64,000 nucleotides of DNA, from assembly GCA_030695945.1 (NCBI GenBank), contig JAUYOG010000024.1, forward strand, positions 1 through 64,000, read 5' to 3'. The position numbers were made by a program, and so were the translations under genes. Under the pieces are notes generated by a model. The model ran no database searches. It was not told the origin of the DNA and saw only the letters and a list, made by a program, of their open reading frames with translations. Position 1 is the stretch's first letter; every line of letters starts with the position of its first letter. Origin of the DNA: Ramlibacter sp. Lineage in GTDB: Bacteria > Pseudomonadota > Gammaproteobacteria > Burkholderiales > Burkholderiaceae_C. This document shows, piece after piece, positions 6,530 to 53,328 of this stretch.

Positions 6530-8371
6530 TCAGGCCGTGCATTCCCGCGGCTGCGCCTTGGCCTTCTGCAGCTGCAGAAGTTCGTCGGCGCTGCGGTGGC
6601 AGAAGACCTCCACGCCGCCTTCGAGTTCATGCCGCGGCGGTGTCTTGCTGTCGCACACGCCGGCCACACGCAAGGGGCAACGGTCCAGGAAGCTGCAAAT
6701 GCCCGCGCGGTCGGTGGGAGTCTGCACCAGCGGCAGGGCCGCGCGCTGAGCCGCCCCGACCTCGTCCAGCCAGCCCGGGCGCAACTCCGGAACGGAACTG
6801 GCCAGCAGGTGGAAATACGGATGGCGCGGCGCATGCGCGAAAGCCGACCGCGTGAGCGACTCCACCTTCTGGCCGGCGTACAGCACCACGATCTCGTCGC
6901 ACACGGCGCGCACGGTGTTCATGTCGTGGCTGATGAACATGTACGACACCCCGAGCTCCTTGCGCAGCTGCGCCAGCAGGTCCAGGATCGCGGCGGCCAC
7001 CACCGTGTCCAGCGCGGAGGTGACTTCGTCGCACAGGATCAGGTCGGGGTCGGCGGCCAGCGCGCGCGCCAGGTTGACGCGCTGCTTCTGCCCGCCGGAC
7101 AGCCCGGCCGGCACCCGCCGCGCGCAGGATTGGGGCAGCTGCACGAGGTCCAGCAGCTGCGCGATGCGCTTGTCCAGAGCGTCGCCCTTCAGCCCGCGGT
7201 ACAGCTGCAGCGGCCGCGCGAGGATCTCGGCGATGGTGTGCGAAGGATTGAGCGCCGTGTCCGCCATCTGGAACACGATCTGGATGCGGCGCAGTTCCTC
7301 ACGCGAACGCTGCGATACCAGGCGTGGCAGCGGTTTTCCGTCGAACATGATCTGCCCGCCGGCGGGCCCGATCAGCCCGGCGACGACACGGGCCAACGTG
7401 GTCTTGCCGGAGCCGGACTCGCCGATGACGCCGATCGCCTGGCCGCGGTAGATACGCAGGCTCACGTCGTCCAGCACCGGCGCGGCGGGCCGGCCATGCT
7501 TGTCCAGAGGCCCATAGCCGGCGACCAGGTTTCGCAATTGAAGCAGCGGCGTGGCGCCCTCGGCCACCGTCTCGCCGCTGCGCGCCTTGGGGTTCGCGGC
7601 GGCGATCAGGCTGCGCGTGTAGTCGTCTTTCGGCGTGTTGATGATCTGCGGCGTGGTGCCGATCTCGCGCTCGGCGCCGTCGCGCAGCACCAGGATGCGG
7701 CCGGCCATCTGGGCGACCACCGCCAGGTCGTGCGTGACGTAGACCGCCGTGGTCTGGCGCTCGCGCACCACGCGCCGGAAGGCGTGCAGCACCTCGATCT
7801 GGGTGGTGACGTCCAGCGCCGTGGTGGGTTCGTCGAAGATCACCAGGTCCGGGTCGCTCATCAGCGCCATCGCCGCCATCAGCCGCTGCAGCTGCCCGCC
7901 CGAAACCTGGTGCGGGTAGCGCTGGCCGATGGTTTCCGGATGCGGCAGCGCCAGCTCGCGGAACAGCACCACGGCTTTTTTCTCGGCCTCCGCGCGCGAC
8001 ATCAGCGAGTGGATGTGCGCGGTCTCGACCACCTGGTCCATGATGGTGCGCGACGGGTTGAACGAGGCGGCGGCACTCTGCGCGATGTAGGAGATGCGGC
8101 GGCCGCGCAGTCGGCGCCGTTCGGATTCGGACAGGCCCAGCACGTCGGTGTCGCCGATGCGCACGCTGCCGCCGGCTATGCGGCAGCCGCGCCGCGCGTA
8201 GCCCATGAGCGCCAGGCCTATGGTGGTCTTGCCGGAGCCGGACTCACCGATCAGCGCCAGCACCTCGCCGGGCTCGATGCGGAAAGAAACGCCTTTGACG
8301 ATCTCTGTTTCGCCGCCGCCGGCGGCCTGCGCCACGATGCGCAGTTCGTTCACGAGGACAGTGGCACCCAT
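6530..8371 (-). CDS. Dipeptide/oligopeptide-type ABC transporter, fused double ATP-binding protein
   Basis: This 613-residue protein joins the two ATPases that are separate DppD and DppF in many bacteria. Each half has a Walker A motif GESGSGKTT, a signature ([24 protein letters not shown]) and a Walker B ([24 protein letters not shown]). The end carries the oligopeptide-type C-terminal domain with spaced cysteines ([17 protein letters not shown], then FCHRS), which binds an iron-sulfur cluster in some relatives. It energises import through the two permeases encoded directly upstream. Its ATG shares a base with their stop (TGATG). It is the only complete ATPase in the window that lies beside binding-protein genes of this family. 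Confidence 0.9.
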
Positions 8372-9240
8372 CAGTGTGTCTCCCGGTCTGCGTCGGTGTG
8401 GCCCGGCAGGTTGTCGATAACGAGGTTGACCGCGATAGTCAGCGCGGCGATCGCCAGCGCCGGGGCGAGCACCGAGACGCCGCCTACCGGCAATGCGCCG
8501 AGGTTCTCGCGCACCAGGGAGCCCCAGTCGGCCATCGGCGGCTGCACGCCCAGGCCCAGGAAGCTCAGGCTCGCCAGGAGGCGCAGGGCGTAGACGAAGC
8601 GCAGGCCCATGTCGGCCAGCAGCGGGCCGGTGATGTTGGGCAGGATCTCGCGGCGCATGATGTAGCCCCGGCGTTCGCCGCGGGCGCGCGCCACGAGCAC
8701 GTAGTCCATGGCGTTGATGTTCACCGCCAGCGAACGGATGATGCGGTAGCAGCCCGGCGTGTAGACGATGGCTGCGACGGCGATCAGCAGCGGCACCGAG
8801 GAGCCGAAGCCGGCGATCACCACCAGCGCGAACATCTTGCTCGGGATGGATATCAGGGTGTCCAGAAACCGACTCAAGGCTGAATCCACCCAGCCGCCCG
8901 TGACCGCGGCCAGCAGGCCCAGCAACGCGCCCAGGCCACAGGCAAGCAGCGTGGCCACCAACGCGACGCCTATGGTGTAGGGCGTGCCCGCGACGATTCG
9001 CGTCAGCATGTCCCGGCCCAGGTAGTCGGTGCCCAGCCAGTGCTGCGCGCTCATGGCCTGGAACACGCCCGCGTCGGACATCTCGCCCAGGGCGTGTTCC
9101 GACAGGAAAGGCGCGAACAGGGCGACGGCAATCCAGAAGGCCAGCACGGCCAGGCCCAGCTTGCCGGCGCGCGACCAGCCGGCCAGCAGGCCGCGCTTGC
9201 GCGTGGCGGCGGCGGGAGGAAGGAGTGTAGCGGTAGTCAT
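8371..9240 (-). CDS. ABC transporter permease (DppC/OppC type)
   Basis: A 289-residue inner-membrane protein with about six hydrophobic segments. The N-terminal part has AQHWLGTDYLGRDMLTRIVAG, typical of DppC-type permeases. The cytoplasmic coupling loop that contacts the ATPase appears as ARGERRGYIMRREILPNITG. It forms a heterodimer with the DppB-like permease encoded 58 bases upstream. The substrate class cannot be read from the permease itself; peptides, opines, nickel chelates and sugars are all carried by this family. Confidence 0.88.
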   Translation of the reverse strand: MTTATLLPPAAATRKRGLLAGWSRAGKLGLAVLAFWIAVALFAPFLSEHALGEMSDAGVFQAMSAQHWLGTDYLGRDMLTRIVAGTPYTIGVALVATLLACGLGALLGLLAAVTGGWVDSALSRFLDTLISIPSKMFALVVIAGFGSSVPLLIAVAAIVYTPGCYRIIRSLAVNINAMDYVLVARARGERRGYIMRREILPNITGPLLADMGLRFVYALRLLASLSFLGLGVQPPMADWGSLVRENLGALPVGGVSVLAPALAIAALTIAVNLVIDNLPGHTDADRETH

Positions 9241-9298
9241 TTGGAAACCTCCGTGCTGCGCACTGCGGTGCGAGCGCTTTCGGATGGACGGGCGGCGC

Positions 9299-10255
9299 TC
9301 ATTGGTGCCTCAGCCGCGGGTTGGCGACGATGCCGCAGACGTCGGCCAGCATCACCAGGATCAGGTAGGCCGCGCAGAAGATCATGGCGCAGGCCTGCAC
9401 CAGCGGCATATCGCGCTGGGCCACGCCGTCCACCATGAGTTTGGCGATGCCCGGGTAATTGAAGATCACCTCGATGATGATCACGCCGCCCAGCAGGTAG
9501 GACAGGCTCAGCGCCACCGCGTTGGCGATGGGGCCGATGGCGTTGGGCAGCGCATGGAACAGCACGGCGCGGGCGGCGGACGCGCCCTTCAGGCGCACCA
9601 TCTCGATGTAGGCCGCGGCCAGCTGGTCGATCACGGCGGCGCGCGTCATGCGCATCATCTGCGCCATGATCACGCTGCCCAGGCTGAGCACCGGCAGCGC
9701 GAAGGAGCGCAGCATCTCGCCGGGCGAGGAAACGTCCACCTCGTACGAGAGCGCCGGCAGCCATTTCAGCTGGACGGCGAACACCAGCACCGCCAACGTG
9801 GCCACCAGGAATTCCGGGACCGAGACCACGGCAACGCTGGTCATGCTGGTAAAGCGGTCGAACGCCGAGCCGCGCCACAGGGCGCACAGGATGCCCAGGC
9901 CCAGGGCCAGCGGCACGGCGAAGGCGGTCGTGACCGCGGCGAGCAGCAGCGAGTTGGGCAGGCGGCTGGCGATCGCCTCGTCCACCGGCATGCCGGTGAC
10001 CACGGACTTGCCCGGGTCTCCCGTGACGATGCCGCCCAGCCAGTCGAAGTAGCGCAGCACCGCGCTGCGGTCCAGCCCCATCTCGTGGCGCAGGGCCTTC
10101 ACAGCTTCGGGCGTGGCGTCCTGTCCCAGCTGCTCCTCGGCCGCGTCGCCGGGCAGCACAGCGGTGATGGCGAACACCAGCACCGACACCGCCAGCAGCG
10201 AGCCCAGCCCGGCCACGATGCGGCCCGCCACCATTTTCGCAATGGTCAGATTCAT
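9299..10255 (-). CDS. ABC transporter permease (DppB/OppB type)
   Basis: A 318-residue membrane protein beginning with a transmembrane helix (residues about 12-32), then the periplasmic loop typical of DppB proteins (VLPGDAAEEQLGQDATPEAVKAL; MGLDRSAVLRYFDWL) and five further helices. The coupling loop is around VRLKGASAARAVLFHALPNA. It pairs with the downstream DppC-like permease. The gene follows its binding-protein gene after a 175-base spacer containing two stem-loops. Confidence 0.88.
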   Translation of the reverse strand: MNLTIAKMVAGRIVAGLGSLLAVSVLVFAITAVLPGDAAEEQLGQDATPEAVKALRHEMGLDRSAVLRYFDWLGGIVTGDPGKSVVTGMPVDEAIASRLPNSLLLAAVTTAFAVPLALGLGILCALWRGSAFDRFTSMTSVAVVSVPEFLVATLAVLVFAVQLKWLPALSYEVDVSSPGEMLRSFALPVLSLGSVIMAQMMRMTRAAVIDQLAAAYIEMVRLKGASAARAVLFHALPNAIGPIANAVALSLSYLLGGVIIIEVIFNYPGIAKLMVDGVAQRDMPLVQACAMIFCAAYLILVMLADVCGIVANPRLRHQ

Positions 10256-10430: not shown

Positions 10431-12050
10431 TCATGATTCCAGCCAGACGTGTTCGGCGAAGCTGGAGCCCATCATCCCGCCGAGCGGGATGGGACTGAGG
10501 CCCTTGAGCTTCTTGTTGTGGCCGTCCAGGCTGGAGAGGAACATCGGAATGCCGATGCCGCCTTCGTTGTGGATCATGACCTGCATGTCGGCGTACATCT
10601 GGGTGCGCTTGGCCTGGTCGGTTTCGCCGCGCGCGGCCACCAGCAGCTGGTCGAACTTCTCGTTCTTCCAGCCGGACTCGTTGGTGGGGGAGTCGGACTT
10701 GAAGAACAGGGTCAGGGCCAGGTCGGCGTTGGGGCGCGTGTTGATGTTGCCGAAGCTGACCGGGTGCCTCATCCAGTGCTGCGACCAGTAGCCGTCGGCC
10801 GGCATGTTGCGCACCTCCAGGTTCAGGCCGGCCTGCCGCGCCGCATGCTGCAGCACCAGGGCCATCTCCACCGAGCTGGTGGCGGCCGTCGAGGCCACCA
10901 CGGGAATCGTGGCGCTCCCCAGGTTGGCTTTCTGCAAATGCCACTTCGCCTTCTCGGGATCGTAGGGGCGCTGCTTCAGGCCCTTGAAGAAGAAGCGGTT
11001 CGCCGGATTGATGGGCTGATCGTTCGCCACGACGCCACGGCCCAGCTGGATGGACTTGAGCATCTGCTCGCGGTTGAACAGCAGCTTCATGGCCTGCACG
11101 AAATCCGGGTTGCTGCCGGGGCCGCCATCGCGCCGCATGATGAGGTCGGTGTACGAGACGCCCTTGGTCTCGAAGATCGCGTGCTTGCTGCTGCCATTCA
11201 CGCGGTCGACCGAGCGCGGGTTGACCCGGGCGATCAGATCCAGTTCGCCAGCCAGCAGCGCGTTGATGCGCGCCGTCTCGTCGCTGATGCCCACGTGCTC
11301 GATCTCGTCCAGGTAAGGCCGGTTGGGCTTCCAGTAGTTGTCGTTGCGCACGGCGATCACGCGCACGCCCGGCTTGAACTCCTTGAGCTTGTAGGGGCCG
11401 GTGCCGATGCCGGCGTTGAAGTCGGTCGTGCCGTCCTTGACGATGTGGAAGTGGTAGGTGCCCAGGATCACGGGCAGGTCGGCATTGGGTGACGTCAGCC
11501 GGAACGTCACCTCGTTGGGGCCCGTGGCGGTCACCTCCTCGATCTGGTCGGCCAGGACTTTCGCCTTGGATCCGGTCGCCGGGTTCTTGTGGCGCATCAT
11601 GGAGAACACCACGTCGGCCGGCGTGAGCGGCTTGCCGTCGTGGAAGGTGACGCCCTTGCGCAGCTTGAACACCCAGGTCTTGGCGTCCTTGGTGCTGAAC
11701 TCCTCGGCCAGTTGGGGCTGCGGTGTCAGGCTCCCGTCCAGGTAGGTCAACCCGTTGTAGAACATGAAGCCGCGGGAATAGTCGGTGCCGTTGCCCTGCT
11801 TGGCCGGATCCAGGGTGTCGCTCACCCCGGAGGTGGCTTCGGCGACCTTGATGCGGCCGCCGCGACGCGGCGTCTGTGCCTGCGCTGTGGTCGCGACGCC
11901 CGCGATGCTGCCGGCCAGAACCGCCTGCATGCCGCCGGCCGTCAACATGGCCAATACATCGCGCCGGCTCGCGCCGCGCTGCAACGCACCCAGGATGCGT
12001 GTGCTCTCTTCAGGGCCGATCAGGCCGTTCAGCTGCTTGTTATTTGCCAT
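10431..12050 (-). CDS. ABC transporter substrate-binding protein (DppA/OppA family), Tat-type signal; paralogue 1
   Basis: The 539-residue periplasmic protein has a twin-arginine signal (SRRDVLAML, Arg29-Arg30), a hydrophobic core and a cleavage region TAQAQTPRRGG. The mature part shows the SBP_bac_5 family pattern: SDTLDPAKQGNGTDY, TWVFKLRKGVTFHDGKPLTPADV, GTGPYKLKEFKPG and LLFNREQMLKS. A 20-residue segment (IGPEESTRILGALQRG) precedes the twin arginines and is shared with two paralogues. It is the first subunit of the complete transporter (permeases and ATPase follow). Three close paralogues at 40827, 46403 and 49974 lack transporter genes of their own. The ligand is unknown; a peptide- or opine-like amino compound fits the neighbours. 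Confidence 0.88.
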   Translation of the reverse strand: MANNKQLNGLIGPEESTRILGALQRGASRRDVLAMLTAGGMQAVLAGSIAGVATTAQAQTPRRGGRIKVAEATSGVSDTLDPAKQGNGTDYSRGFMFYNGLTYLDGSLTPQPQLAEEFSTKDAKTWVFKLRKGVTFHDGKPLTPADVVFSMMRHKNPATGSKAKVLADQIEEVTATGPNEVTFRLTSPNADLPVILGTYHFHIVKDGTTDFNAGIGTGPYKLKEFKPGVRVIAVRNDNYWKPNRPYLDEIEHVGISDETARINALLAGELDLIARVNPRSVDRVNGSSKHAIFETKGVSYTDLIMRRDGGPGSNPDFVQAMKLLFNREQMLKSIQLGRGVVANDQPINPANRFFFKGLKQRPYDPEKAKWHLQKANLGSATIPVVASTAATSSVEMALVLQHAARQAGLNLEVRNMPADGYWSQHWMRHPVSFGNINTRPNADLALTLFFKSDSPTNESGWKNEKFDQLLVAARGETDQAKRTQMYADMQVMIHNEGGIGIPMFLSSLDGHNKKLKGLSPIPLGGMMGSSFAEHVWLES

Positions 12051-12183: not shown

Positions 12184-12852
12184 TCACAGGCCTACCAGGG
12201 CGGGCAGCCCGTTGATGTCGCGGATCTCGGCGAAGCTCCATGCATCGTCGGGCCTGGGCTCATGGCCGCGGTTGACGAACACCTTGTTCACGATACCCAG
12301 GTTCTGGGCAGGGAAAACGTCGTAACGCGGGTTGGCCGACACGTGCAGGACGTCCTCGGGCGCACAGCCGAGCTGGTCCAGCATGTACTCGAACGCCTGC
12401 AGGCGCGGCTTGTACGCGCCGGCATCCTGCGCGGTGTAGATCTTGTGGAACGGCGCCTGCAGCTTGGCCACGTTGTGATGGATCTGCTCGTTCATGGCGT
12501 TGGACAGGATCACCAGCGGGATCTTCTTGGCGATGCGGGTGAGCGCGTGCGGCACATCCGCGTGCGGGCCCCAGGTCGGCACGGCGTCGTAGACCCGCTT
12601 CGCGTCTTCGTCGCGGTAGGTGAGGCCGTGGCGCTTGCAGGTGCGCTGCAGGGCCGACTGGATGATCTGCTGGTAGGGCTTCCAATCGCCCATCACCTCG
12701 TCGAAGCGGTAGTCGGCGAAGTCCTTGGCGAACAGGCGCATCTTCTCCGGCGGCAGCTGGCCTTCGTAGATGTCATAGGCCATCTGGTGCATGGGGAAAT
12801 AGGTCAGCGTACCGTAGCAGTCGAAGGTGATGTACTTGGGGCGGAAGGTCAT
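12184..12852 (-). CDS. HAD-superfamily hydrolase, haloacid-dehalogenase type II-like; paralogue 1
   Basis: The 222-residue cytoplasmic protein has the four HAD motifs: FDCYGTL with the nucleophile Asp9, VILSNAM, the lysine region AYKPRLQAFEYML, and LHVSANPRYDVFPAQNLG. The start at ATG 12852 is preceded by AAGGAG, and the paralogue at 42474 starts identically (MTFRPKYITFDCYGTL). The fold covers L-2-haloacid dehalogenases and phosphatases; the real substrate is unknown. It is the first gene of the transporter operon. The same HAD-then-binding-protein order recurs at 43142-40827, so the pair was probably duplicated as a unit. Confidence 0.82.
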   Translation of the reverse strand: MTFRPKYITFDCYGTLTYFPMHQMAYDIYEGQLPPEKMRLFAKDFADYRFDEVMGDWKPYQQIIQSALQRTCKRHGLTYRDEDAKRVYDAVPTWGPHADVPHALTRIAKKIPLVILSNAMNEQIHHNVAKLQAPFHKIYTAQDAGAYKPRLQAFEYMLDQLGCAPEDVLHVSANPRYDVFPAQNLGIVNKVFVNRGHEPRPDDAWSFAEIRDINGLPALVGL

Positions 12853-12931
12853 GGAAGCGTCTCCTTGGAAGGGTGGTGTAAAGCTCAGGCGGGGCCGCCG
12901 GCGCCATGCAATGAATGCTATTGAAGCGCCG

Positions 12932-12946
12932 CCGCAGATGCTGCGG
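12932..12946. promoter_or_regulatory. Palindrome CCGCAG-ATG-CTGCGG in divergent promoter region
   Basis: Perfect six-base arms with a three-base centre, 80 bases before the HAD gene (minus) and 107 before the dehydratase gene (plus). The same palindrome, followed by GGTT(G/A)TGCGCC and preceded by ATGAATGCTAT at a similar distance, occurs at 48114-48128 upstream of another binding protein. It is a good operator candidate. Confidence 0.55.
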
Positions 12947-13052
12947 TTGTGCGCCGCTTGCGCACCGTTCATGCCGAATGCCCGCGCCTAAACGGCAGAT
13001 CAATTCCGGGGCAAGGGGGTACCATGACTTCGATTCATTCAGAGGGGATTTG

Positions 13053-18724: not shown

Positions 18725-18741
18725 CCGCGCCGCGCAACCCC

Positions 18742-37173: not shown

Positions 37174-37182
37174 GCTTGCGTC

Positions 37183-37453: not shown

Positions 37454-37498
37454 CTTGAAGAACAGGGTCAACGCCAGGTCGAAGCTGGGGCGCGTGTT
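37454..37498 (-). pseudogene. Inverted 45-bp piece of the same binding-protein gene
   Basis: The minus strand reads NTRPSFDLALTLFFK. In intact paralogues this sequence directly follows MKHPVGFGN, the residues at which the plus-strand remnant ends. The segment therefore looks turned around in place (micro-inversion). Confidence 0.7.
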
Positions 37499-42473: not shown

Positions 42474-43142
42474 TCAGAGTCCGACAAGGGCCGGAAGCCC
42501 GTTGATGTCGCGGATCTCGGCAAAGCTGAATGCGTCGCTGGGCCTCGGTTCATGCCCGCGGTTGACGAACACCTTGTTGACGATGCCGAGGTCCTGCGCC
42601 GAGAAGATGTCGTAGCGCGGGTTGGCCGACACGTGCAGGATTTCGTGTGGTGCGCAGCCGAGCTGGTCCAGCATGTATTCGAACGCAGCCAGGCGCGGCT
42701 TGTAGGCGCCGGCATCCTGCGCCGTGCATACCTTGTGGAAGGGCGCCTTGAGCTTTTCCACGTTCGAGTCGATCTGCTCGTTCATCGCGTTGGACAGGAT
42801 CACCAGCGGGATCTTCTTTGCGATGCGCGTGAGCGCGTGCGGCACGTCGGCGTGCGGCCCCCAGGAGGGCACCGCGTCGTAGATTCTCTTCGCATGCTCA
42901 TCGCGGAAGACCAGCTTGTGCTTCCTGCAGGCGCGTTGCAGCGACGAATGCAGGATGTCCAGGTAGGGTTTCCAGTCGCCCATCGCTTCGTCCAAGCGGT
43001 AGTCGTTGAAGTTCTTGAGGAACACGTTCATCTGCGCCGGTGGAAGCTGGCCCTCGTAGATGTCGTACGCCGCCTGGGTCATGGGGTAGTACGTGAGGGT
43101 CCCGTAGCAGTCGAAGGTGATGTACTTGGGGCGGAAGGTCAT
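42474..43142 (-). CDS. HAD-superfamily hydrolase, haloacid-dehalogenase type II-like; paralogue 4
   Basis: A 222-residue near-twin of the protein at 12184: MTFRPKYITFDCYGTLTYYP, LVILSNAMNEQID, AYKPRLAAFEYMLDQLGCAP and the same last residues (INGLPALVGL). It is the first gene of the unit running to 37503 and is divergent from the LysR gene. The binding-protein gene follows after 27 bases, as part of the duplicated HAD/binding-protein pair. Confidence 0.83.
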   Translation of the reverse strand: MTFRPKYITFDCYGTLTYYPMTQAAYDIYEGQLPPAQMNVFLKNFNDYRLDEAMGDWKPYLDILHSSLQRACRKHKLVFRDEHAKRIYDAVPSWGPHADVPHALTRIAKKIPLVILSNAMNEQIDSNVEKLKAPFHKVCTAQDAGAYKPRLAAFEYMLDQLGCAPHEILHVSANPRYDIFSAQDLGIVNKVFVNRGHEPRPSDAFSFAEIRDINGLPALVGL

Positions 43143-44384: not shown

Positions 44385-45345
44385 GTTTGTAGATATCGGC
44401 AAGGTCGCACAGGTCCCAGTTCCCGCCGGTCAATACTGCGCAGACCTTCTCATCTGGTTTGACCTTGATGGCTCCGGCCAACAAGGCTCCTATACCAATC
44501 GACGCGGCGGGCTCAGCGATCAGCTTTGCATCTTTGGCAAGCGTACGCATGCCCGCGATGATGTGTTCGTCTTCAACGAGAACGATCTCGTCGACATACT
44601 TTTCAATAATGGGCCATGGGTTCTGGCCTGGCACGCTGATTCTTAAACCATCCGCAATGGTGTTTTTCAAGGGAAGCGATGTACGTTCCTTGTTGATCCT
44701 GCTGTGGAAGTACTTCGGCGTCAGGGCGGGTTCCGCGCCGATGACACGCACGCCCGGGTTCGTTTCCTTGATGGCGGTAGCGATTCCCGAAATCAGGCCT
44801 CCGCCGCCCATGGGAACAATGACCGTGTCCACATCTTGCAGATCCTCCAGTATTTCGCACCCGATCGTTCCCTGGCCAGCCATGACCAGAGGGTCCTCGA
44901 AGCCGTGAACCGCCGCGTACCTGTTCTCTTCGGCGATCTCGCACACCCTTTTCCATCGGGCGGCCGTGTCGCCGTCGAAAAGAATGACTTCCGCTCCCAG
45001 GGCTTTGGTGTTCTCGATCTTGATCTTGGGTGTAGTCACCGGAACGACAATGATCGCCTTCACGCCCAGCATCCTGGCGGCATAGGCGATCCCCTGGGCA
45101 TGATTGCCCGAAGAGGTTGCAATAAGGCCGTTGGCGATCTCTTCTCTCGGGAGAGACAGTGCCTTGTTCAGAGCGCCACGAATCTTGAAGGCGCCTGTGA
45201 TCTGCAGGGTTTCAGGCTTGAGATAAAGCTGACAACCGACGGCCTTCTCGATCTTTTCTGCGCGCAACAACGGGGTATGTTTGATGTGCGGTTTCAGCCG
45301 TTGCTGGGCGTCTCGAATGTCCTGGATGGTGGGGTAGTTGCGCAT
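44374..45345 (-). CDS. Threonine/serine dehydratase-family PLP enzyme (hydroxyaspartate-dehydratase-like)
   Basis: A 323-residue fold-type II PLP enzyme with the lysine in ITGAFKIRGALN (Lys54), phosphate loop SSGNHAQG and glycine-rich PMGGGGLISG. It lacks the ACT regulatory domain of biosynthetic IlvA, so it is of the catabolic type. With the adjacent cyclodeaminase-family gene it resembles the pairs in ectoine use (EutB/EutC) and in the beta-hydroxyaspartate cycle (BhcB/BhcD). The other cycle genes are absent. GC content is visibly lower than in the neighbours, suggesting recent transfer. Confidence 0.8.
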   Translation of the reverse strand: MRNYPTIQDIRDAQQRLKPHIKHTPLLRAEKIEKAVGCQLYLKPETLQITGAFKIRGALNKALSLPREEIANGLIATSSGNHAQGIAYAARMLGVKAIIVVPVTTPKIKIENTKALGAEVILFDGDTAARWKRVCEIAEENRYAAVHGFEDPLVMAGQGTIGCEILEDLQDVDTVIVPMGGGGLISGIATAIKETNPGVRVIGAEPALTPKYFHSRINKERTSLPLKNTIADGLRISVPGQNPWPIIEKYVDEIVLVEDEHIIAGMRTLAKDAKLIAEPAASIGIGALLAGAIKVKPDEKVCAVLTGGNWDLCDLADIYKLTE

Positions 45346-45370
45346 GGTGCTGGATTCCAAAGCTTCGCCC

Positions 45371-46363
45371 CTAGTCGATGAACTCGAAGAACGTTCCGAC
45401 CTGCCCGTCCAGCGCGTTCCGGTAGATCTTCGCCGCCGTCGTGTTGTCCTGGATGGCCATGCCGGTGGAGTCGAAGATGGTGATCTCGTCGTCGCTCTCG
45501 CGCCCGGGCTTCTTGCCAAGCAGGATCTCGCCGATCTCGGCGTGGATGTCCTTCGGCGTCATGATGCCTCTGGCGATGGGGTGCTGGGTCTCGCCCTTTT
45601 CGACGCACTGCGCGATCGAATCGACCACGACCTTCGCGTCCCGGAAGATCTCCGGCTCGAACTCCTGCTTGCCCGGCGCGTCGCTGCCGATCGCCACGAT
45701 GTGGGTGCCGGGCTTCACCCAACCGGCCTCTACCAGCGCCCCTTTGCCGCGGGTGGTGGTGATCAGGATGTCGGCCTGCGCTACGGCTTCCTCCTTGGAG
45801 TTCGCCATTATGACCGGGATGTCGAACTCGCTTTCGATGTCCGCCTTGTACCTGGCCTGCGTCTCGGGATGGTGGTCCCATGCCTGGATCTCTTCGATCT
45901 TCATCACCTCCCTGATGGCGCGTATCTGCATCCTGGCCTGGTTGCCGGTGCCGATCGAGGTGATCTTCCTCGCGTTCTTTCGCGCGAGTGCCTTGACTGA
46001 AACGGCGCCGCACGCGCCGGTCCGAAGGCCCGTGAGCAGGCTTCCGTCCATCACGCACATCAAGGCGCCGCTCCTGCCGTCGAAGAGCAGCACGGTCCCC
46101 ATCCCGTTGGGAACCCCGTATTGTTCCGGGTTGCCGGTGAACCCACCCGAGGACGCCTTCATGGAGATCACTTCGTTGCCCTGGTTGTAGCCCAGCTTGA
46201 AATCAATCTCACCGCGGTGGGAAGGCAGATCGATCCCGATATAGGGAGGTTGTATCACCTGGCCGCTGTTGAAGGCCTTGTAGGCCTCTTCCACCGTACC
46301 GATGACTTCCTTCATGCAGATCAATCTGCGGACTTCCTCTTTCTTGAGCAAAAGTGTTTTCAT
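45371..46363 (-). CDS. Ornithine cyclodeaminase/mu-crystallin family protein
   Basis: The 330-residue NAD(P)-binding protein has [35 protein letters not shown], the Rossmann segment [19 protein letters not shown] and [17 protein letters not shown]. The family includes ornithine cyclodeaminase, imine reductases and alanine dehydrogenase. Beside a hydroxy-amino-acid dehydratase, reduction of an imino acid (or the reverse) is likely. It lies 25 bases before the dehydratase gene and 39 after the binding-protein gene. Lysine- and isoleucine-rich stretches set it apart from its neighbours. Confidence 0.82.
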
Positions 46364-46402: not shown

Positions 46403-48052
46403 TCATGCTTCCATCCAGACGTGTTCGGCGAAGTTGGAGCCCATCATGCCGCCGATGGGAATCGGCGAGAGGCCCTTGAGCTTGGTCGTGTGCCCGTCCA
46501 GGCTGGAGATGAACATCGGGATTCCGATGCCACTTTCGTCGTGAATCATCGTTTGCATGTCGGCGTACAGCTGCGTGCGCTTCGCCACGTCGGTTTCGCC
46601 GCGCGAAGCCACCAGCAGCTCGTCGAACTTCGGGCTCTTCCAGGCCGACTCGTTCCAGGGCGCATCGGACTTGAAGAACAGCGTCAAAGGCAGGTCGGCG
46701 CTGGGGCGCGAGTTGACGTTGCCGAAGCCCACCGGGTGCTTCATCCAGTGCTGCGACCAGTAGCCGTCGGCGGGCATCTTGCGCACGTCCAGGTTCATTC
46801 CGGCCTGCCGGGCCGCGTGCTGCAGGACCAGCGCGATTTCCACCGAGTTGGTGGCCGCAGGCGACACCACGACGGGGATGGCGGCGCTGCCCAGGTTGGC
46901 TTTCTGCGCATGCCACTTGGCTTTTTCGGGATCGTAGGGGCGCTGCTTGAGGCCTTTGGCGTAGAAGCGGTTGGTCGGGGCGATCGGCTGGTCGTTGGCC
47001 ACCACGCCATGGCCCAGCACGATGGACTTGATCATCTGCTCACGGTTGAACAGGTGCTTCATGGCCAGCACGAAGTCCGGGTTGTTTCCCGGGCTGCTGT
47101 CGCGCCGCATGACCAGGTTGGTGTACGAGGTCGCCTTGGTTTCGAAGATCGCGTGCTTGCCGGTGGCCCGGACGCGGTCGACCGATCGGGAATTGACGGC
47201 GATGATGAAGTCCAGCTCGCCGGCCAGCAGCGCGTTGATGCGCGCGTTCTCGTCGCTGATGCCCACGTACTCGATCTCGTCCAGGTAGGGCCGGTTGGGC
47301 TTCCAGTAGTTGTCGTTGCGCACGGCGATCGAGCGCACGCCGGGCTTGAACTCCTTGACCTTGTAGGGGCCCGTGCCGATGCCGGCATTGAAGTCGGAGG
47401 TGCCTTCCTTGACGATGTGGAAATGGTAGGTGCCCAGGATCACAGGCAGGTCGGCGTTGGGTGACGTCAGCCGGAAGGTCACTTCGTCGGGCCCTGTGGC
47501 GGTCACTTCCTCGATCTGATCGGCCAGCACCTTGGCCTTCGATCCCGTCGCCGGGTTCTTGTGGCGCATGATGGAGAACACGACGTCGGCGGGTGTCAGC
47601 GGCTTGCCGTCGTGGAACGTGACACCCTTGCGCAGCTTGAAGACCCAGGTCTTCGCGTCCTTGGTTGTGAACTCCTCCGCCAGCGACGGCTGGGCAATGA
47701 GGTTGCCGTCCAGCACCGTGAGGCCGTTGTAGAACATGAAGCCGCGGATGTAGTCCGTGTGGTTGGACTGCTTGGCCGGATCGAGCGTGTCGCTCACCGC
47801 CGCCGCGGATCCCGCAACCCGCAGGCGCCCGCCCTTGCGCGGGGTCTGCGCATGCGCGCTGGTGGCGATCCCGGCGATGCTGCCGGCCAGTGCCGCCCGC
47901 ATGCCGCCCGCCATCATCATCGAAAGCACATCGCGCCGGCTCGCGCCGCGCTGCAGTGCACCGAGGATTCGCGTGCTCTCTTCGGGGCCGATCAGGCCGT
48001 TCAGGCCGTTCAGGCCGTTCAGCTTATCGTCGTGTGTCGTGCGAAAACTCAT
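46403..48052 (-). CDS. ABC substrate-binding protein, Tat-type signal; paralogue 3 (orphan)
   Basis: A 549-residue periplasmic protein with the shared leader IGPEESTRILGALQRGASRRDVL (Arg39-Arg40) and HAQTPRKGGRLRV. Just before the shared leader it has three tandem Asn-Gly-Leu repeats. ATG 48052 has AGGAGAT upstream; the frame is open to 48094 but without a better start. The mature part matches paralogues 1 and 2 along its length. No transporter genes follow; the cyclodeaminase/dehydratase pair does. Confidence 0.87.
   Translation of the reverse strand: MSFRTTHDDKLNGLNGLNGLIGPEESTRILGALQRGASRRDVLSMMMAGGMRAALAGSIAGIATSAHAQTPRKGGRLRVAGSAAAVSDTLDPAKQSNHTDYIRGFMFYNGLTVLDGNLIAQPSLAEEFTTKDAKTWVFKLRKGVTFHDGKPLTPADVVFSIMRHKNPATGSKAKVLADQIEEVTATGPDEVTFRLTSPNADLPVILGTYHFHIVKEGTSDFNAGIGTGPYKVKEFKPGVRSIAVRNDNYWKPNRPYLDEIEYVGISDENARINALLAGELDFIIAVNSRSVDRVRATGKHAIFETKATSYTNLVMRRDSSPGNNPDFVLAMKHLFNREQMIKSIVLGHGVVANDQPIAPTNRFYAKGLKQRPYDPEKAKWHAQKANLGSAAIPVVVSPAATNSVEIALVLQHAARQAGMNLDVRKMPADGYWSQHWMKHPVGFGNVNSRPSADLPLTLFFKSDAPWNESAWKSPKFDELLVASRGETDVAKRTQLYADMQTMIHDESGIGIPMFISSLDGHTTKLKGLSPIPIGGMMGSNFAEHVWMEA
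47993..48019. repeat. Three tandem 9-bp units CAGGCCGTT
   Basis: In-frame repeats at 47993, 48002 and 48011 encode Asn-Gly-Leu three times in the leader of the binding protein. Changes in copy number would alter the leader by three residues without breaking the frame. Confidence 0.75.
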
Positions 48053-48113
48053 GGGAGCATCTCCTGAATGTAAAAAGGCTCGTCGCGATGCCATGAATGC
48101 TATGCCGCGGCCG

Positions 48114-48238: not shown

Positions 48239-49516
48239 TCAGGACAGCTTGTCCTTGAGCCGGTAATAGGCGCCGACCAGCGGCAGGAACCAGGGTGGGC
48301 CGAAGTGGCCTGGAATGGCGGGCCATGCGAAGTCTTTCCAGGGATTCAGGTCGGTGCGTCCGTCCATGACCTCCGCCATGATGCTGCCCATCAGGGTCGA
48401 CATCTGGGTGCCGTGGCCGCTGTAGCCCATCGAGTAGTAGATGCCGTTGCGTTCCCCGGCGCGTGGCAGCCGGTCACGCGTCATGTCGAGCATCCCGCCC
48501 CAGCAATAGTCGATGCGCGCGGCGCGCAGCTCGGGAAAGACATCGTGCAGTGCAGCCTGCAGGATCGCGCCGCTCTTCTCGTCCGAGGCCGGGTTGGAGA
48601 CGGCGAAGCGGGCGCGTCCGCCGAAGAGCAGCCGGTTGTCGGGCGTCGTTCGGAAGTAGTTGACCAGGTTTTTCGTATCGACCGCCATCCTGCGGCGCGG
48701 CAGGAGCCGATCGAGCGTCGATGTCGGCAGGGGCTCGGTGACGATCAGGAATGCGCCGACCGGCACGATCCGGCGCCGGATCCAACCCAGCGGCCCCGTC
48801 TGCGAGATTCCGCTCGCCAGCAGAACCTGCTTGGCATGAAGCCGGCCCTTCGGGGTTTCGATATGGTGGCCTCCTCCGGGGGCGGGCCGCAGGCCCGTCA
48901 TCGGCGTGTGCTCGTGGATTTCGACGCCGCGCCGTGCCGCCGCTTCCGCCAGGCCGCGCACGAAGCGCCCCACATGCATGCCGGCGCCCTTGCGGTAGAC
49001 CAGGCCGCCGTAGTAGCGGTCCGAACCGACCTCGCCCGCCAGATCCGCGCGGCTGACCATTTCCGTGTCGGGATCAACAGTGGCGGCCAGCAATTCCTGG
49101 CTGCGCATCAGCTTGTCGTAGTGCTCGGGCTTGGCCGCCAGCTTGATCTTGCCGACCCGCGCGAAGTTGCAGGCTATGTTCTCTTCGGCCACCAGGCGTT
49201 CGACCATGTCGACACCGGCGTCGAAAGCCCGGTAGAGCCGGTTGGCGACGTCCTTGCCGAGTTTGGCCGACATCATGCCGTAGTCCTGGGCGAAGCCGTT
49301 GTTGCACATACCGCCGTTACGGCCGGACGCCGCGTTCCCGACCGTCTCTGCTTCCAGGAGCACGACGCGAGCGCCCTTCTTCGCGAGAGCCAGTGCGGCC
49401 GAAGAACCGGTCAGGCCGCCACCGATCACTGCAACGTCGCAGCTGCCTTGCACCGGCCCTGGGGCGGCGCTCCGGAATGGCTCGGATGTGTCCAACCAAT
49501 AGGATGTGAGCTTCAT
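48239..49516 (-). CDS. FAD-binding oxidoreductase (DAO family), trio copy A
   Basis: A 425-residue flavoprotein: N-terminal SYWLDTSEPF, FAD motif VAVIGGGLTGSSAALALAKKG, AASGRNGGMCNNG, then YSMGYSGHGTQMSTLMGS and the unusual end GHFGPPWFLPLVGAYYRLKDKL. The same ending recurs in the protein at 51564. ATG 49516 (MKLTSYW) is chosen by alignment with that copy. It belongs to a tandemly repeated trio (cupin, flavoprotein, binding protein). The substrate is probably an amine or amino acid linked to the binding protein's ligand. Confidence 0.82.
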   Translation of the reverse strand: MKLTSYWLDTSEPFRSAAPGPVQGSCDVAVIGGGLTGSSAALALAKKGARVVLLEAETVGNAASGRNGGMCNNGFAQDYGMMSAKLGKDVANRLYRAFDAGVDMVERLVAEENIACNFARVGKIKLAAKPEHYDKLMRSQELLAATVDPDTEMVSRADLAGEVGSDRYYGGLVYRKGAGMHVGRFVRGLAEAAARRGVEIHEHTPMTGLRPAPGGGHHIETPKGRLHAKQVLLASGISQTGPLGWIRRRIVPVGAFLIVTEPLPTSTLDRLLPRRRMAVDTKNLVNYFRTTPDNRLLFGGRARFAVSNPASDEKSGAILQAALHDVFPELRAARIDYCWGGMLDMTRDRLPRAGERNGIYYSMGYSGHGTQMSTLMGSIMAEVMDGRTDLNPWKDFAWPAIPGHFGPPWFLPLVGAYYRLKDKLS

Positions 49517-49556
49517 GGCGGTTCGCTGTCTCGGTTCGATGTCTCGGCGCGTTGAC

Positions 49557-49913
49557 TCAGGCCGTGACCCAGACCTTGCGCACGGTTTCAAGCGTGCGCC
49601 AGGTGCCGGTGTAGCCGGGCTTCATGATGAAGCAATCGCCGGCCCGGTAGGTCACGGGGGGCTGTCCGTCCTCGGTGATCTCCGCCACCCCTGACAGGAT
49701 CAGGCAGAACTCCCACGTGTCGCCCTTGATGGAGCGATTGACCCCCGGGGTGGATTCAAACACGCCGGCGCGCACCTTGCCGTCCTTGGCGCTGTCGACC
49801 TCCCAGCTGCGGCAGACGATGTCCCCTTCCAGCACGCGATCGGCCGGCGGCCGGTATTCGCGCGGCTCGCCAAGCTGGTCGAGCTTGAAGGTGACGAGAA
49901 GATTGTTTGGCAT
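49557..49913 (-). CDS. Small cupin-domain protein, trio copy A
   Basis: A 118-residue single-domain cupin of the DUF861 type: VFESTPGVNRSIKGDTWEFCLILSGVAE, then RAGDCFIMKPGYTGTWRTLE and VRKVWV. Family members include ureidoglycine aminohydrolase-like and sugar-binding proteins. A metal site is not obvious, since few histidines are present. It precedes the flavoprotein gene by 40 bases. The tight linkage in both trio copies suggests an accessory or sensing role for the oxidase reaction. Confidence 0.78.
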   Translation of the reverse strand: MPNNLLVTFKLDQLGEPREYRPPADRVLEGDIVCRSWEVDSAKDGKVRAGVFESTPGVNRSIKGDTWEFCLILSGVAEITEDGQPPVTYRAGDCFIMKPGYTGTWRTLETVRKVWVTA

Positions 49914-49973: not shown

Positions 49974-51530
49974 TCATGCGTCGAGCCAGACGTTCTCGGC
50001 GAAGTTGTAGCCCATCAGACCGCCCAGCGGAATCGGCGACAGGCCCTTGAGCTTCTTGCTGTGCCCGTCGATGCTGGACATGAAGAATGGGATGCCGATG
50101 CCGCCTTCCTCATGGATCATGACCTGCATGTCGGCGTACATCTGGGCGCGCTTGGCCGTGTCGGTCTGCGCCCGCGCGGCCAGCAGCAGCTGGTCGAACT
50201 TCGGGTTCTTCCAGCCGGCCTCGTTCCACGGCGCGTCGGACTTGAAGAACTGGGTGAGCAGCACGTCGGCCGAGGGGCGCGGGTTGATGTTGCCGAAGCC
50301 CACTGGATGCTTCATCCAGTGCTGCGACCAATAGCCGTCGGCCGGCATGCGGCGCACGTCGAGGTTCAGCCCGATCTGGCGCGCCGCGTGCTGCATGACC
50401 AGCGCCATCTCCGCCGAATTCGTGGCCGCGGGAGACACCACCACCGGGATGCCGGCGCTGCCGAGGTTGGCCTTCTGCACGTGCCACTTGGCCTTTTCGG
50501 GATCATACGCGCGCTGCTTGAGCCCCTTGAAGTAGAAGCGGTTGCTGGGGTGGATGGGATGGTCGTTGGCCACCTCGCCGTAGCCCAGCAGGATGGACTT
50601 GACCATCTGCTCGCGGTTGAACAGGTGCTTCATGGCCAGCACGAAGTCCGGGTTGCTACCTGGCCCGCTGTCGCGGCGCATGATGAGGTCGGTGTACAAG
50701 CCCGCCCGGGTCTCGAAGATCGCGTGCTTGGCCGACCCCTTGATGCGGTCGACCGAACGCGGGTTGATGGCCGTGGTCAGGTCGATCTCGCCGGTCAAGA
50801 GCGCGTTGACGCGCGCCGCCTCGTCGCCGATGCCCACGTACTCGATCTCGTCCAGGTAGGGGCGGTTCGGCTTCCAATAGTTCTCATTGCGGACGGCGAC
50901 CGTGCGCACGCCGGGTTTGAAGTCCTTGAGCTTGTAGGGGCCGGTTCCGACGCCGGCCATGTGCGCGTTCACGTCGGTAACGCCGTCGCGCACGATGTGG
51001 AAGTGCGAGGTGCCAAGAATGGCCGGCAGGTCCGCGTTGGGCGCCACGAGGCGGATGCTCACTTCATGCGGGCCGGTGGCCTTCACTTCCTCAAACTGCT
51101 CGGCCAGCACCTTGGCCTTGGAGCCGGTCGAAGGGTCCTTGTGGCGCATGAGGGAGAACACGACGTCGGCGGAGGTGAAGGCCTTGCCGTCGTGGAACGT
51201 CACGCCCTTGCGCAGCTTGAACACCCAGTTCCTGCCATCCTTGCTTGCGAACTCCTCGGCCAGTGCGGGCTGGGGCGTGAGGCTGCCATCCAGCGAGGTC
51301 AGCCCGTTGTAGAACATGAAGCTGCGGATGTAGTCGGAGTGGTTGGAACCCTTGGCCGGGTCCAGCGTGTCGCTGAGCGCCGCGGTCGCGCCGGCCACCT
51401 TGATGCGCCCGCCCCTGCGCGGGGTCTGCGCCTGCGGCTGGGCCGCGGTTGCCAGCGGGGCGACGCCGCCAGCGATCAGCATGGCCAGCACGTCGCGGCG
51501 GCTGGCATTGAGTTCACGAAAATTGTTCAT
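49974..51530 (-). CDS. ABC substrate-binding protein, Tat-type signal; paralogue 4 (orphan)
   Basis: A 518-residue periplasmic protein starting MNNFRELNASRRDVLAMLI (Arg11-Arg12), so it lacks the 20-residue leader of the other three but keeps the same twin-arginine core. The mature part begins QTPRRGGRIKVAGATAALSDTLDPAKGSN and follows the family throughout. It ends the second cupin/flavoprotein/binding-protein trio. No permease genes are attached. Confidence 0.87.
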   Translation of the reverse strand: MNNFRELNASRRDVLAMLIAGGVAPLATAAQPQAQTPRRGGRIKVAGATAALSDTLDPAKGSNHSDYIRSFMFYNGLTSLDGSLTPQPALAEEFASKDGRNWVFKLRKGVTFHDGKAFTSADVVFSLMRHKDPSTGSKAKVLAEQFEEVKATGPHEVSIRLVAPNADLPAILGTSHFHIVRDGVTDVNAHMAGVGTGPYKLKDFKPGVRTVAVRNENYWKPNRPYLDEIEYVGIGDEAARVNALLTGEIDLTTAINPRSVDRIKGSAKHAIFETRAGLYTDLIMRRDSGPGSNPDFVLAMKHLFNREQMVKSILLGYGEVANDHPIHPSNRFYFKGLKQRAYDPEKAKWHVQKANLGSAGIPVVVSPAATNSAEMALVMQHAARQIGLNLDVRRMPADGYWSQHWMKHPVGFGNINPRPSADVLLTQFFKSDAPWNEAGWKNPKFDQLLLAARAQTDTAKRAQMYADMQVMIHEEGGIGIPFFMSSIDGHSKKLKGLSPIPLGGLMGYNFAENVWLDA

Positions 51531-51563: not shown

Positions 51564-52850
51564 TCAGGCGAACTTGTTCTTGATCTGGTAGTACAGGCCC
51601 ACGGCGGGCAGGAACCACGGCGGGCCGAAGTGGCCGGGGATGGCAGGCCAGGGGTTGTTGCGCCAGGGGTTGGCCGCCACGTCGCCGGCCATCACCCGGG
51701 CCATGCATTCGCCCATGTGCACCGACATCTGCGTGCCATGGCCGCTGTAGCCCATGGAATAGAACAGGCCGTCCGTCTCGCCCGCGTGCGGCAGCCGGTC
51801 CTGCGTCATGTCGACGATGCCGCCCCAGCAGTAGTCGACACGCACGTCGCGCAGTTGCGGGAACATCGCCACCAATTGCTCGCGCAGCACCTGGCCGCTC
51901 TTTGCGTCCGAGCGCGGGCTGGACAGGGCGAAGCGCGCGCGCCCGCCGAACACCAGCCGGTTGTCGGGCGTGACGCGGAAGTAGTTGTGCAGCGTGTCGG
52001 TGGTGGTGTAGGTGCGGCGCTGCGGCAGCAGGGCCTGCAAGGCGCTTGCATCGAGCGGTTCGGTCACGATGATGAAGCTGCCGATCGGCACGATGCGGCG
52101 CCGCCAGAAGGAGAAGCTGGAGAAAGCGCCGTGGCGCGTCGCACCGGTGGCCAGCAGCACCTGGTCCGCATCGATGGTGCCGCGCTGGGTGTGCACGCGA
52201 TACGCATGGCCGTGCAGACGCTGCAGCCGCTCCACCGGCGTGTGGTCATAGATCTGCGCGCCGCGCCGCGCTGCGGCCTCCGCCAACCCGCGGCCGAATT
52301 GGCCCATGTGCATCTGGGCACTCTTCTTGAACAGCAGGCCACCCGCGAAACGGTCGCAGCCGATCTCCTCGTGCACGCGCTGCGGCGGCACCAGCTCGAC
52401 CTGCGGGTCGGCCTCACGGCGCAGGCGGTCAAAACTCCGCGCCAGCTGGTCGTAGTGTGCAGGCCTCGAGGCGAGCTTGAGCTTGCCGCGGCGGTGGAAG
52501 TCGCAGGCGATCGCCTCCTCGTGCACGATGCGCTCGACGGTGTCCACCGCGTCGTCGTAGGCGCGATACCAGGCGGCCGCGCGTTCGGTGCCCACGCGGG
52601 CCGCGACGGTGGCGTAGTCCACCGCCAGCCCGTTGTTCACATGGCCGCCGTTGCGCCCCGAGGCCTCGGCCGCCACCCCCGCCGCCTCCAGCACCACCAC
52701 CTTGGCGCCGCGCATGGCCAGCTTGCGGGCGGCCGACAGGCCGGTGAAGCCGCCGCCGACCACCACCACGTCGGCCTTGGCGGGCAACGCATCGGTGTGG
52801 CCTTCAAACGGGGCCGTGGTATCCGTCCAGAACGATTCGAGCTTCATCAT
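51564..52850 (-). CDS. FAD-binding oxidoreductase (DAO family), trio copy B
   Basis: A 428-residue flavoprotein related along its whole length to the one at 48239: VVVVGGGFTGLSAARKLAMRG, EASGRNGGHVNNGLAVDY, YCWGGIVDMTQDRLPHAGE, YSMGYSGHGTQMSVHMGE and the end GHFGPPWFLPAVGLYYQIKNKF. It starts at ATG 52850 or 52847. A copy of the AACCGCAG motif lies 65 bases upstream. The binding-protein gene follows 33 bases after its stop. Confidence 0.82.
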   Translation of the reverse strand: MMKLESFWTDTTAPFEGHTDALPAKADVVVVGGGFTGLSAARKLAMRGAKVVVLEAAGVAAEASGRNGGHVNNGLAVDYATVAARVGTERAAAWYRAYDDAVDTVERIVHEEAIACDFHRRGKLKLASRPAHYDQLARSFDRLRREADPQVELVPPQRVHEEIGCDRFAGGLLFKKSAQMHMGQFGRGLAEAAARRGAQIYDHTPVERLQRLHGHAYRVHTQRGTIDADQVLLATGATRHGAFSSFSFWRRRIVPIGSFIIVTEPLDASALQALLPQRRTYTTTDTLHNYFRVTPDNRLVFGGRARFALSSPRSDAKSGQVLREQLVAMFPQLRDVRVDYCWGGIVDMTQDRLPHAGETDGLFYSMGYSGHGTQMSVHMGECMARVMAGDVAANPWRNNPWPAIPGHFGPPWFLPAVGLYYQIKNKFA

Positions 52851-52914
52851 GCGGCCATTGAAGCATGGGGGTCCGAGGGGTTTGTCCCGATCGCGGTGGC
52901 GCGCGAAACAAAAG

Positions 52915-52922
52915 CTGCGGTT
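52915..52922 (-). promoter_or_regulatory. AACCGCAG motif before trio copy B flavoprotein
   Basis: Minus-strand AACCGCAG within AAAACCGCAGCTTTT, at a similar distance from a start (65 bases) as its three relatives. Proposed as part of a common operator. Confidence 0.4.
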
Positions 52923-52968
52923 TTGAAAAGCGCCGGCGGCATGTTCTGCGGCATGGTTGCCCTGACCC

Positions 52969-53328
52969 TCAGGCGGCGCCGTACACGAGCCAGATCTTGC
53001 GCGTGGTCTCGATGCAGCGCCACTTGCCCACGTAGTCCGGCTTCATCACGAAGCTGTCTCCCGCCCGCACGCGGATGGGCTCCTTGCCGTCCTCTATCAG
53101 CTCCGACACGCCGGAGAGGATGTAGCAGAACTCCCAGACGCCGCCCTTGATGGAGCGGATCGTGCCGGGCGTGATTTCCCACACGCCGGTGCGCACCTTG
53201 CCGTCGGGTGATTGCTCCACGTCCCAGTTCATGAAGCGCGGATCGCCCGCGATCAGGCGCTCGGGCAAGGGGGCGCCCTCACGGCCGGCGCCGAGATTGT
53301 CGAACTTGAAGAAAGTCAGGTTGCTCAT
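52969..53328 (-). CDS. Small cupin-domain protein, trio copy B
   Basis: A 119-residue cupin related to the protein at 49557: VWEITPGTIRSIKGGVWEFCYILSGVSE, RAGDSFVMKPDYVGKWRCIET and RKIWLVYG. ATG 53328 fits the family start (MSNLTFFKFDNLG). It is the first gene of the minus-strand series that runs through both trios, and is divergent from the HAD gene at 53535. Confidence 0.78.
   Translation of the reverse strand: MSNLTFFKFDNLGAGREGAPLPERLIAGDPRFMNWDVEQSPDGKVRTGVWEITPGTIRSIKGGVWEFCYILSGVSELIEDGKEPIRVRAGDSFVMKPDYVGKWRCIETTRKIWLVYGAA

Follow-up and report, generated by a model that had tools for sequence, protein, structure and literature searches.

Several solute-binding proteins (SBPs) can serve a single ATP-binding cassette (ABC) channel. 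This is established for Pseudomonas aeruginosa, where the DppBCDF channel works with DppA1-A5; these DppA paralogs are about 50-83% identical to each other and distinct ligand profiles were shown for them experimentally (PMC4206461, PMC12728205). Here we analyze a 64,000-nucleotide stretch of Ramlibacter sp. DNA (the window; G000:C59:1-64000), located on a 77-kb contig of a 3.75 Mb assembly that is 79% complete, which carries four related SBPs and one Dpp-type permease/ATPase set. We consider it probable (about 0.7), judging from sequence comparison, that one ABC channel is fed by the four SBPs, that the extra SBPs are tied to flavin oxidases, and that the window represents a conserved uptake-and-catabolism operon of the Burkholderiales that has become expanded and scattered.

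The binding proteins and their channel

The four proteins, all encoded on the minus strand, match the SBP_bac_5 model (PF00496) with 221-250 bits against a cut-off of 32.4, which bears out the original prediction of four related family members. SBP1 (10431..12050) is operonic, while SBP2 (40827..42446), SBP3 (46403..48094) and SBP4 (49974..51530) are orphans. Their pairwise identity of 72-83% (83% between SBP3 and SBP1) makes them one close family, beyond shared superfamily membership. Each begins with a twin-arginine motif, S-RR-D-V-L in SBP1, SBP3 and SBP4 and N-RR-D-V-L in SBP2. The arginine pair is kept in 93 of 94 family rows and the strict pattern [ST]RR in 85; one of the nine misses is an N-terminally incomplete row, and the rest, including SBP2, differ before the pair. 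To judge from these leaders, the four proteins are probably exported by the twin-arginine translocation (Tat) pathway. The dead fifth copy that had been proposed is real but small, comprising about 94 codons in plus-strand tblastn fragments within 37178..37459. Its main piece corresponds to SBP residues about 255-330 (67-77% identical) and a separate 20-residue piece lies near SBP residue 400 (70% identical).

The single adjacent channel, likewise predicted, is confirmed on the minus strand. It consists of a fused two-domain ATPase of the DppD plus DppF type (6530..8371; two Pfam ABC_tran matches and oligo_HPY), the DppC/NikC-type permease PermC (8371..9240; PF00528; next best match in the genome 35% identical) and the DppB/NikB-type permease PermB (9299..10255; PF00528 and PF19300; single copy at E<=1e-80). 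Genome-wide there are 14 SBP_bac_5 genes, together with 10 clear and 2 weak DppC/NikC-type matches. Nine of the ten SBPs outside the SBP1-4 family, including C59:65343 and a tandem pair on contig C1, lie no more than about 5 kb from a permease match, and the tenth (C20:1513) lies at a contig edge; this one aside, only SBP2-4 are without such a match. A genome-wide search for close permeases dedicated to the individual orphans found none in the 79% complete assembly, and given this degree of completeness the argument from a missing second permease leans mainly on other genomes.

Three samples of relatives are informative. In a survey of 399 family genomes (SBP at E<=1e-170, up to three candidates scored per genome), the SBP family is present in 31 genomes. 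Exactly these 31 also have a PermB of at least 71% identity; seven additional genomes have PermB matches of 43-47% only. The 31 genomes carry one SBP copy in 28 cases, two in G263 and G412, and four in the Ramlibacter genome itself, of which the survey with its three candidates per genome captured three. An orphan-biased set of 18 genomes, made up of the Ramlibacter genome and 17 picked from the loci for orphans or as comparisons, gives SBP to PermB ratios of 4:1 (Ramlibacter and Caenimonas soli), 3:1 (n=3), 2:1 (n=8), 3:2 (Cupriavidus necator A5-1) and 1:1 (n=4). SBPs thus outnumber close PermB homologs in 14 of the 18 genomes and PermB is lacking in none, the match being partial in G206 and G216. 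Caenimonas soli has its four SBPs and one PermB in about 55 kb of a single contig. The third sample covers 79 named loci with 80 SBP copies, the best 80 of 163 matches, and their neighborhoods: a permease/ATPase of this type lies within 8 kb of 63 copies, ten are clear orphans and seven are too close to a contig end to judge. The ten orphans belong to nine genomes, all of which have PermB at 62-94% identity, counting the frame-shifted PermB of Polaromonas sp. P2-4. In the relatives examined, extra SBPs were therefore found only alongside the channel, a pattern that points to its shared use.

A phylogenetic tree of 94 SBP rows, built with a quick method, places SBP1 with the operonic SBPs of full sets from Caenimonas, Ramlibacter and G412. 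SBP4 forms a clade with orphans of Caenimonas and G412 that both adjoin the oxidase DAO_G at about 90% identity, and SBP2 groups with a Caenimonas orphan adjoining DAO_E. SBP3 stands alone, near an orphan clade of Variovorax and Azohydromonas that adjoins DAO_F at 89-93% identity. The presence or absence of a permease changes 13 times on this tree, with 11 changes forced by starred branches, compared to 24 in shuffles; some of the 28 rows labeled as lacking a permease lie at a contig edge, and others do have one at a distance of a few kb.

A 39-row tree revealed three full operons (L126, L134 and L135) with an SBP in the clade of the window and orphan SBPs (support 100/100). Their transporter proteins fall into the standard clade, and grouping these with the transporter of the window is rejected by the approximately unbiased (AU) test (p=4.7e-49); their oxidases also belong to the standard clade. 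As only the SBP departs from the standard type, the binding protein appears to have been replaced alone. On this reading, the swap would be the best evidence for interchangeable SBPs on this channel.

Sequence divergence differs among the paralogs. SBP2 and its Caenimonas ortholog are 97% identical (third positions 0.86), SBP1 and SBP4 are 88-90% identical to their Caenimonas counterparts (third positions 0.76-0.77), and HAD_d/DAO_E reach 87-88%. The high conservation of SBP2 could reflect either stronger constraint or later exchange. Third-position identity between SBP1 and SBP3 rises to 0.89-0.93 near alignment codons 240-300, as gene conversion between the two might produce, but the pattern is not clearly mosaic.

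Flavin oxidases and the conserved operon

Seven of the 14 genome matches to the DAO family (PF01266, E<=1e-25) lie within 2.8-52.8 kb of the contig, where about 0.2 would be expected at random (binomial 2.6e-10, for a region picked after the fact). Profile matches confirm that the orphan SBPs adjoin DAO flavoproteins, HAD (haloacid dehalogenase-like) proteins or cupin genes. DAO_E (39481..40842, minus strand) has a frame overlapping the end of SBP2, the profile matches being 21 bp apart, and the SBP2 ortholog adjoins DAO_E in Caenimonas soli as well. DAO_F (48239..49591, minus) adjoins SBP3 and is 89-93% identical to its counterparts in the Variovorax and Azohydromonas orphan cassettes. DAO_G (51564..52850, minus) adjoins SBP4 and clusters with the conserved operon's oxidases in a tree. 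Across six genomes, a DAO gene lies within 2.5 kb of 14 of 18 family SBPs, compared to 1.7-3.8% expected per SBP. In the Ramlibacter genome this holds for three of the four family SBPs versus none of the ten other SBP_bac_5 proteins (Fisher p=0.011). The oxidases themselves are diverse, with 26% identity between DAO_A and DAO_E and 55% between DAO_F and DAO_G, and no BLASTP match at E<=1e-3 links the A/E and F/G pairs.

The remaining DAO genes are DAO_A of the D-amino acid dehydrogenase (DadA) family (2848..4146, minus; NF001933, 683 bits, cut-off 383), DAO_B (17345..18724, plus; PF01266 match at 17453-18634), DAO_C (18721..19884, plus) and DAO_D (37503..38732, minus), the last three with uncertain starts. 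A sarcosine-oxidase-alpha-like flavoprotein (20172..21563, plus; Pyr_redox_2 and SO_alpha_A3) follows DAO_C. The minus strand further encodes an aldehyde dehydrogenase of the succinate-semialdehyde dehydrogenase (SSADH) type (4143..5594; PF00171; SSADH model 614 bits, below the cut-off of 646), a protein of the N-formylglutamate amidohydrolase family (FGase, 5616..6542; PF05013) and the type II haloacid dehalogenase-like hydrolase HAD_a (12184..12972; TIGR01428, 170 bits). Around the orphans, on the same strand, are HAD_c (38804..39508) and HAD_d (42474..43142; 82% identical to HAD_a), both PF00702, a threonine-dehydratase-like pyridoxal phosphate enzyme (44374..45519; PF00291), a protein of the ornithine cyclodeaminase/alanine dehydrogenase family (45371..46363; PF02423), and cupins 1 (49557..49913) and 2 (52969..53499), both PF05899.

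In the 31 genomes of the survey, the usual state is one SBP copy inside a conserved catabolic operon with HAD, flavin oxidase, SBP, PermB, PermC, ATPase, aldehyde and tartrate-type dehydrogenases and an aminotransferase. We tallied its genes in 49 full loci with adequate flanks, using at least 45% identity to the genes of the Ralstonia locus L074 and a distance of at most 9 kb. The oxidase was found in 46 loci, GNAT in 44, HAD in 43, the SSADH-type aldehyde dehydrogenase in 42, the class III aminotransferase in 39, a GhrA-like gene in 38, AsnC in 35 and the tartrate-dehydrogenase-like gene in 34. The latter matches solved tartrate dehydrogenase/decarboxylase with 611 bits, and its homolog in the window (tartrate/D-malate dehydrogenase-like, 54418..55560, plus; ends approximate, as the frame runs on) is 77% identical to the L074 gene. 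The window's contig holds homologs of all tallied operon genes, scattered from about 4 to 74 kb, so that some lie just outside the window.

Other genomes show different degrees of dispersal. In L111, a groundwater metagenome-assembled genome, a single SBP is found together with a DAO_G-type oxidase, the channel, FGase and aldehyde dehydrogenase. G412 has a first block of AsnC, class III aminotransferase (AT3), GhrA, GNAT, HAD, cupin, DAO_G and SBP4, followed by other catabolic genes and then by SBP1, PermB, PermC, ATPase, aldehyde dehydrogenase and DAO_A, whereas in Caenimonas soli and in the window four SBPs are spread over tens of kilobases. From gene order alone, we infer that catabolic genes with added SBPs ended up between the old SBP and the channel.

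Candidate ligands

The AlphaFold model of SBP1 (pLDDT 82.5, pTM 0.78) was compared to solved structures with Foldseek. The ten best matches are family 5 binding proteins by title (TMq 0.68-0.77) and include dipeptide-, HEHEAA-, agropinic-acid- and glutathione-binding proteins, so that the fold search gives no separation of ligand classes. We also considered R383 and D436 of Escherichia coli DppA, the pair mutated in 8z1z, which bind the two ends of the peptide. A phmmer alignment, which is of low identity and not structural, matches neither residue: SBP1 has a gap opposite R383 and T438 opposite D436 (at this position, SBP2-4 have P or S). Binding of dipeptides in the manner of DppA is therefore unlikely. 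R439 and P440 are invariant across SBP1-4. Over 15 rows, 227 of 480 mature positions are invariant and eight positions separate the ortholog groups cleanly, the latter being no more than suggestive of differing ligands among the paralogs.

As to the enzymes, DAO_F and DAO_G resemble L-pipecolate oxidase and aminophosphonate-oxidoreductase models, with scores far under the cut-off. Ornithine cyclodeaminase-family and sarcosine-oxidase-like flavoproteins occur in the region, and no model named opine oxidase is among the matches listed. The core HAD proteins match 8hp5 and 3smv best, also the nearest solved relatives of HAD_a (E about 1e-18 to 1e-21; 77-80 bits, weak), which does not suffice to assign the substrate; the match to the canonical L-2-haloacid dehalogenase 1jud is poorer (3e-9 for HAD_a, 5e-5 for the Ralstonia HAD). 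The 8hp5/3smv group includes L-azetidine-2-carboxylate hydrolase. Aspergillus deals with azetidine-2-carboxylate by means of a HAD hydrolase, an acetyltransferase and a gamma-aminobutyrate (GABA) transaminase (PMC8016842). The operon has a comparable set in its HAD, its GNAT and its class III aminotransferase, a resemblance that gives a lead but no result.

It would suit a more specific, quite unlikely scenario in which the operon takes up azetidine-containing or related N-alkylated plant amino acids, such as azetidine-2-carboxylate, nicotianamine or mugineic-acid-type chelators. The flavin oxidase would cut the N-alkyl link and the HAD would open the four-membered ring, after which the aminotransferase and the SSADH-type and tartrate/D-malate dehydrogenases would act on a four-carbon hydroxy-amino acid, the carbon passing from malate semialdehyde via malate to pyruvate. 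The additional cassettes would widen the range as SBP/oxidase plug-ins that recombine between genomes, with the same channel and compound class. A literature search on the breakdown of nicotianamine or phytosiderophores listed a single paper.

Setting of the window

A DDE transposase match (655-1377) marks the left border of the region, and scans of the window with Rfam and for tRNA genes gave no matches. The central part (22000-42000) contains three TctC receptors (26036, 32958, 34911), CoA-ligase/CoA-transferase genes and the SBP remnant. Within it, an APH phosphotransferase and a class III aminotransferase (23137-25493) resemble the two ends of fused PRK06148/PRK06149 and adjoin a HAD and an AsnC regulator; a similar set occurs in Variovorax, Azohydromonas and Caenimonas. 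HAD-like homology with a single in-frame stop (53535-54227) lies beside the tartrate-dehydrogenase-like gene. A second, unrelated Dpp/Nik-type transporter with its own SBP, which is NikA/CntA-like, begins at about 61.8 kb and crosses the window end (61836-64000, continuing in L142 4700-9712). Elsewhere in the genome, the tandem SBP_bac_5 pair on C1 (C1:171431-174392; L004, L013) has a same-strand DppC-type permease match downstream (C1:175840) and is possibly another, unrelated multi-SBP set.

Discussion

The arrangement suggests a modular system in which the operonic SBP1 is joined by SBP2-4, seated with extra catabolic genes, chiefly DAO-family flavin-dependent amine oxidases. The small nitrogen compounds captured by the individual SBPs would be related yet distinct, and SBP2-4 would dock on the channel of PermB, PermC and fused ATPase, delivering their ligands to the cytoplasm. 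There, a flavoprotein presumably matched to the ligand would oxidize a C-N bond, and the carbon would reach central metabolism through aldehyde dehydrogenases, aminotransferase, HAD hydrolase and tartrate/D-malate dehydrogenase. The original prediction of an expanded uptake and oxidation system thus stands in part, with the opine-like or D-amino compounds named there being candidate ligands only. Sharing of one channel by several SBPs is well supported by evolution, namely by the search of the genome, which found no second close permease, the perfect co-occurrence in the samples and the SBP swaps. A separate oxidase for each SBP is only partly supported: the SBP4/DAO_G and SBP2/DAO_E pairs are kept across genera, while DAO_F is paired with two SBP lineages and SBP1 has no DAO gene close by.

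A number of observations weigh against this picture. SBP1 is 5.4 kb from its nearest DAO match, and its counterpart in Caenimonas 6.0 kb. Two of the three C. necator A5-1 SBPs lack a DAO within 4.6 kb, and Caenimonas has a DAO_F without an adjoining SBP. Strict co-branching of SBPs and oxidases is not supported for DAO_F, because the AU test rejects a single clade of DAO_F-linked SBPs (p=0.006). This points either to a change of partners or to an SBP3 modified through exchange with SBP1. For the swap, holding the SBPs of L126, L134 and L135 with the standard SBPs gave AU p=0.038, a modest value for a group named after the tree was seen. The co-occurrence of single-copy SBPs with the permease is partly trivial, since the two share an operon, and the genomes are not independent. 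In Polaromonas sp. P2-4 (L055 11703-16850), the homology to PermB, PermC, ATPase and aldehyde dehydrogenase switches frame several times, due to either sequencing error or decay, whereas the matches to SBP and to oxidase each keep a single frame. The system is absent from all five sampled congeners, which together with the 79% completeness of the genome makes mis-binning or recent acquisition possible. The tetranucleotide profiles of 2-22 kb (0.84) and 42-62 kb (0.83) are close to the 0.85 within the genome, but the former matches G412 equally (0.86), and 22-42 kb deviates (0.75) and is possibly a later insert.

The orphans might instead be redundant paralogs that bind the same ligand as SBP1 and serve only dosage or differential expression, with the adjoining oxidases being unrelated catabolic genes. 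The high identity of SBP1-4 (72-83%), the 227 invariant mature positions and the loose pairing of SBPs with oxidases would fit such a view. We nevertheless regard it as unlikely, as the paralogs are old, with relatives of SBP1 and SBP4 in Caenimonas and G412 and of SBP2 in Caenimonas, and as the association with oxidases is strong, the oxidases diverging far more than the SBPs.

That another permease serves the orphans, either the Nik/Cnt-like set at 61.8-65.1 kb or another Dpp-type set, seems very unlikely, even though nine clear DppC/NikC-type matches exist besides the set of the window, one of them on the same contig. The second SBP of the contig is just 26% identical to SBP1, and the 6530-10255 channel type is present in all 14 other genomes searched. 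The 61.8-65.1 kb transporter is not supported as orphan partner, because a search of 14 other genomes that carry the SBP family gave no homolog of its PermB at E<=1e-90. Still more improbable, in our estimate, are orphans acting as sensors or chemotaxis ligand receptors, or being decaying copies. One copy has indeed been reduced to the remnant at 37178-37459, but the four SBPs are full-length with twin-arginine leaders, their lineages occur in several genera, and no chemoreceptor or sensor kinase was found among the 50 window proteins scanned.

A shared channel with oxidase-linked SBPs may be a cheap way of widening the diet, in which one channel is kept and interchangeable SBPs are added together with the first catabolic enzyme. 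If this is true, SBPs and oxidases could be read as cassettes, so that ligands for orphan SBPs may be proposed from the substrates of the neighboring oxidase, and, conversely, substrates become accessible for poorly annotated DAO-family oxidases. The exchange of SBPs between operons would also provide natural material for studying the requirements that such a channel places on an SBP.

Expansions of Bug/TctC binding proteins are accompanied by few TctAB membrane components. The large binding-protein excess reported for Bordetella and Rhodoplanes resembles the situation here, but concerns a tripartite transporter class rather than an ABC system and is of another scale (PMC5994714, PMC11452294). 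AgaA and AccA, from opine importers of Agrobacterium, share the binding-protein fold with SBP1, AgaA with agropinic acid according to the PDB titles, at only about 18-21% identity. AapF of Pseudomonas sp. PDC86, which binds HEHEAA (titles of 7kz8/7kz9), is nearest to SBP1 in sequence among solved proteins and ranks second by fold; at about 24% identity its ligand is not transferable. The AzhA/NgnA/GABA transaminase route (PMC8016842) is similar to the core operon in that the HAD is nearest to that subfamily and GNAT, class III aminotransferase and SSADH-type dehydrogenase are present, but the HAD similarity is weak (77-80 bits), and the solved relatives of the GNAT are weak and none is named azetidine acetyltransferase. 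Unlike E. coli DppA, the SBPs of the window do not conserve R383 and D436 and are surrounded by amine-oxidizing genes. The closest parallel in organization is DppA1-A5 of P. aeruginosa, likewise paralogous SBPs with one Dpp-type channel, dppA1-A4 near the channel and dppA5 elsewhere; there, however, the ligands are di- and tripeptides, and the neighbors named in the cited passages are a regulator, a dipeptidase and a porin, with no oxidase among them. Searches of the open-licence PMC literature, not all aimed at this question, turned up no report of the operon or of orphan SBPs linked to oxidases. While the principle of several SBPs on one channel is known, its oxidase-linked, swappable form appears to be new.

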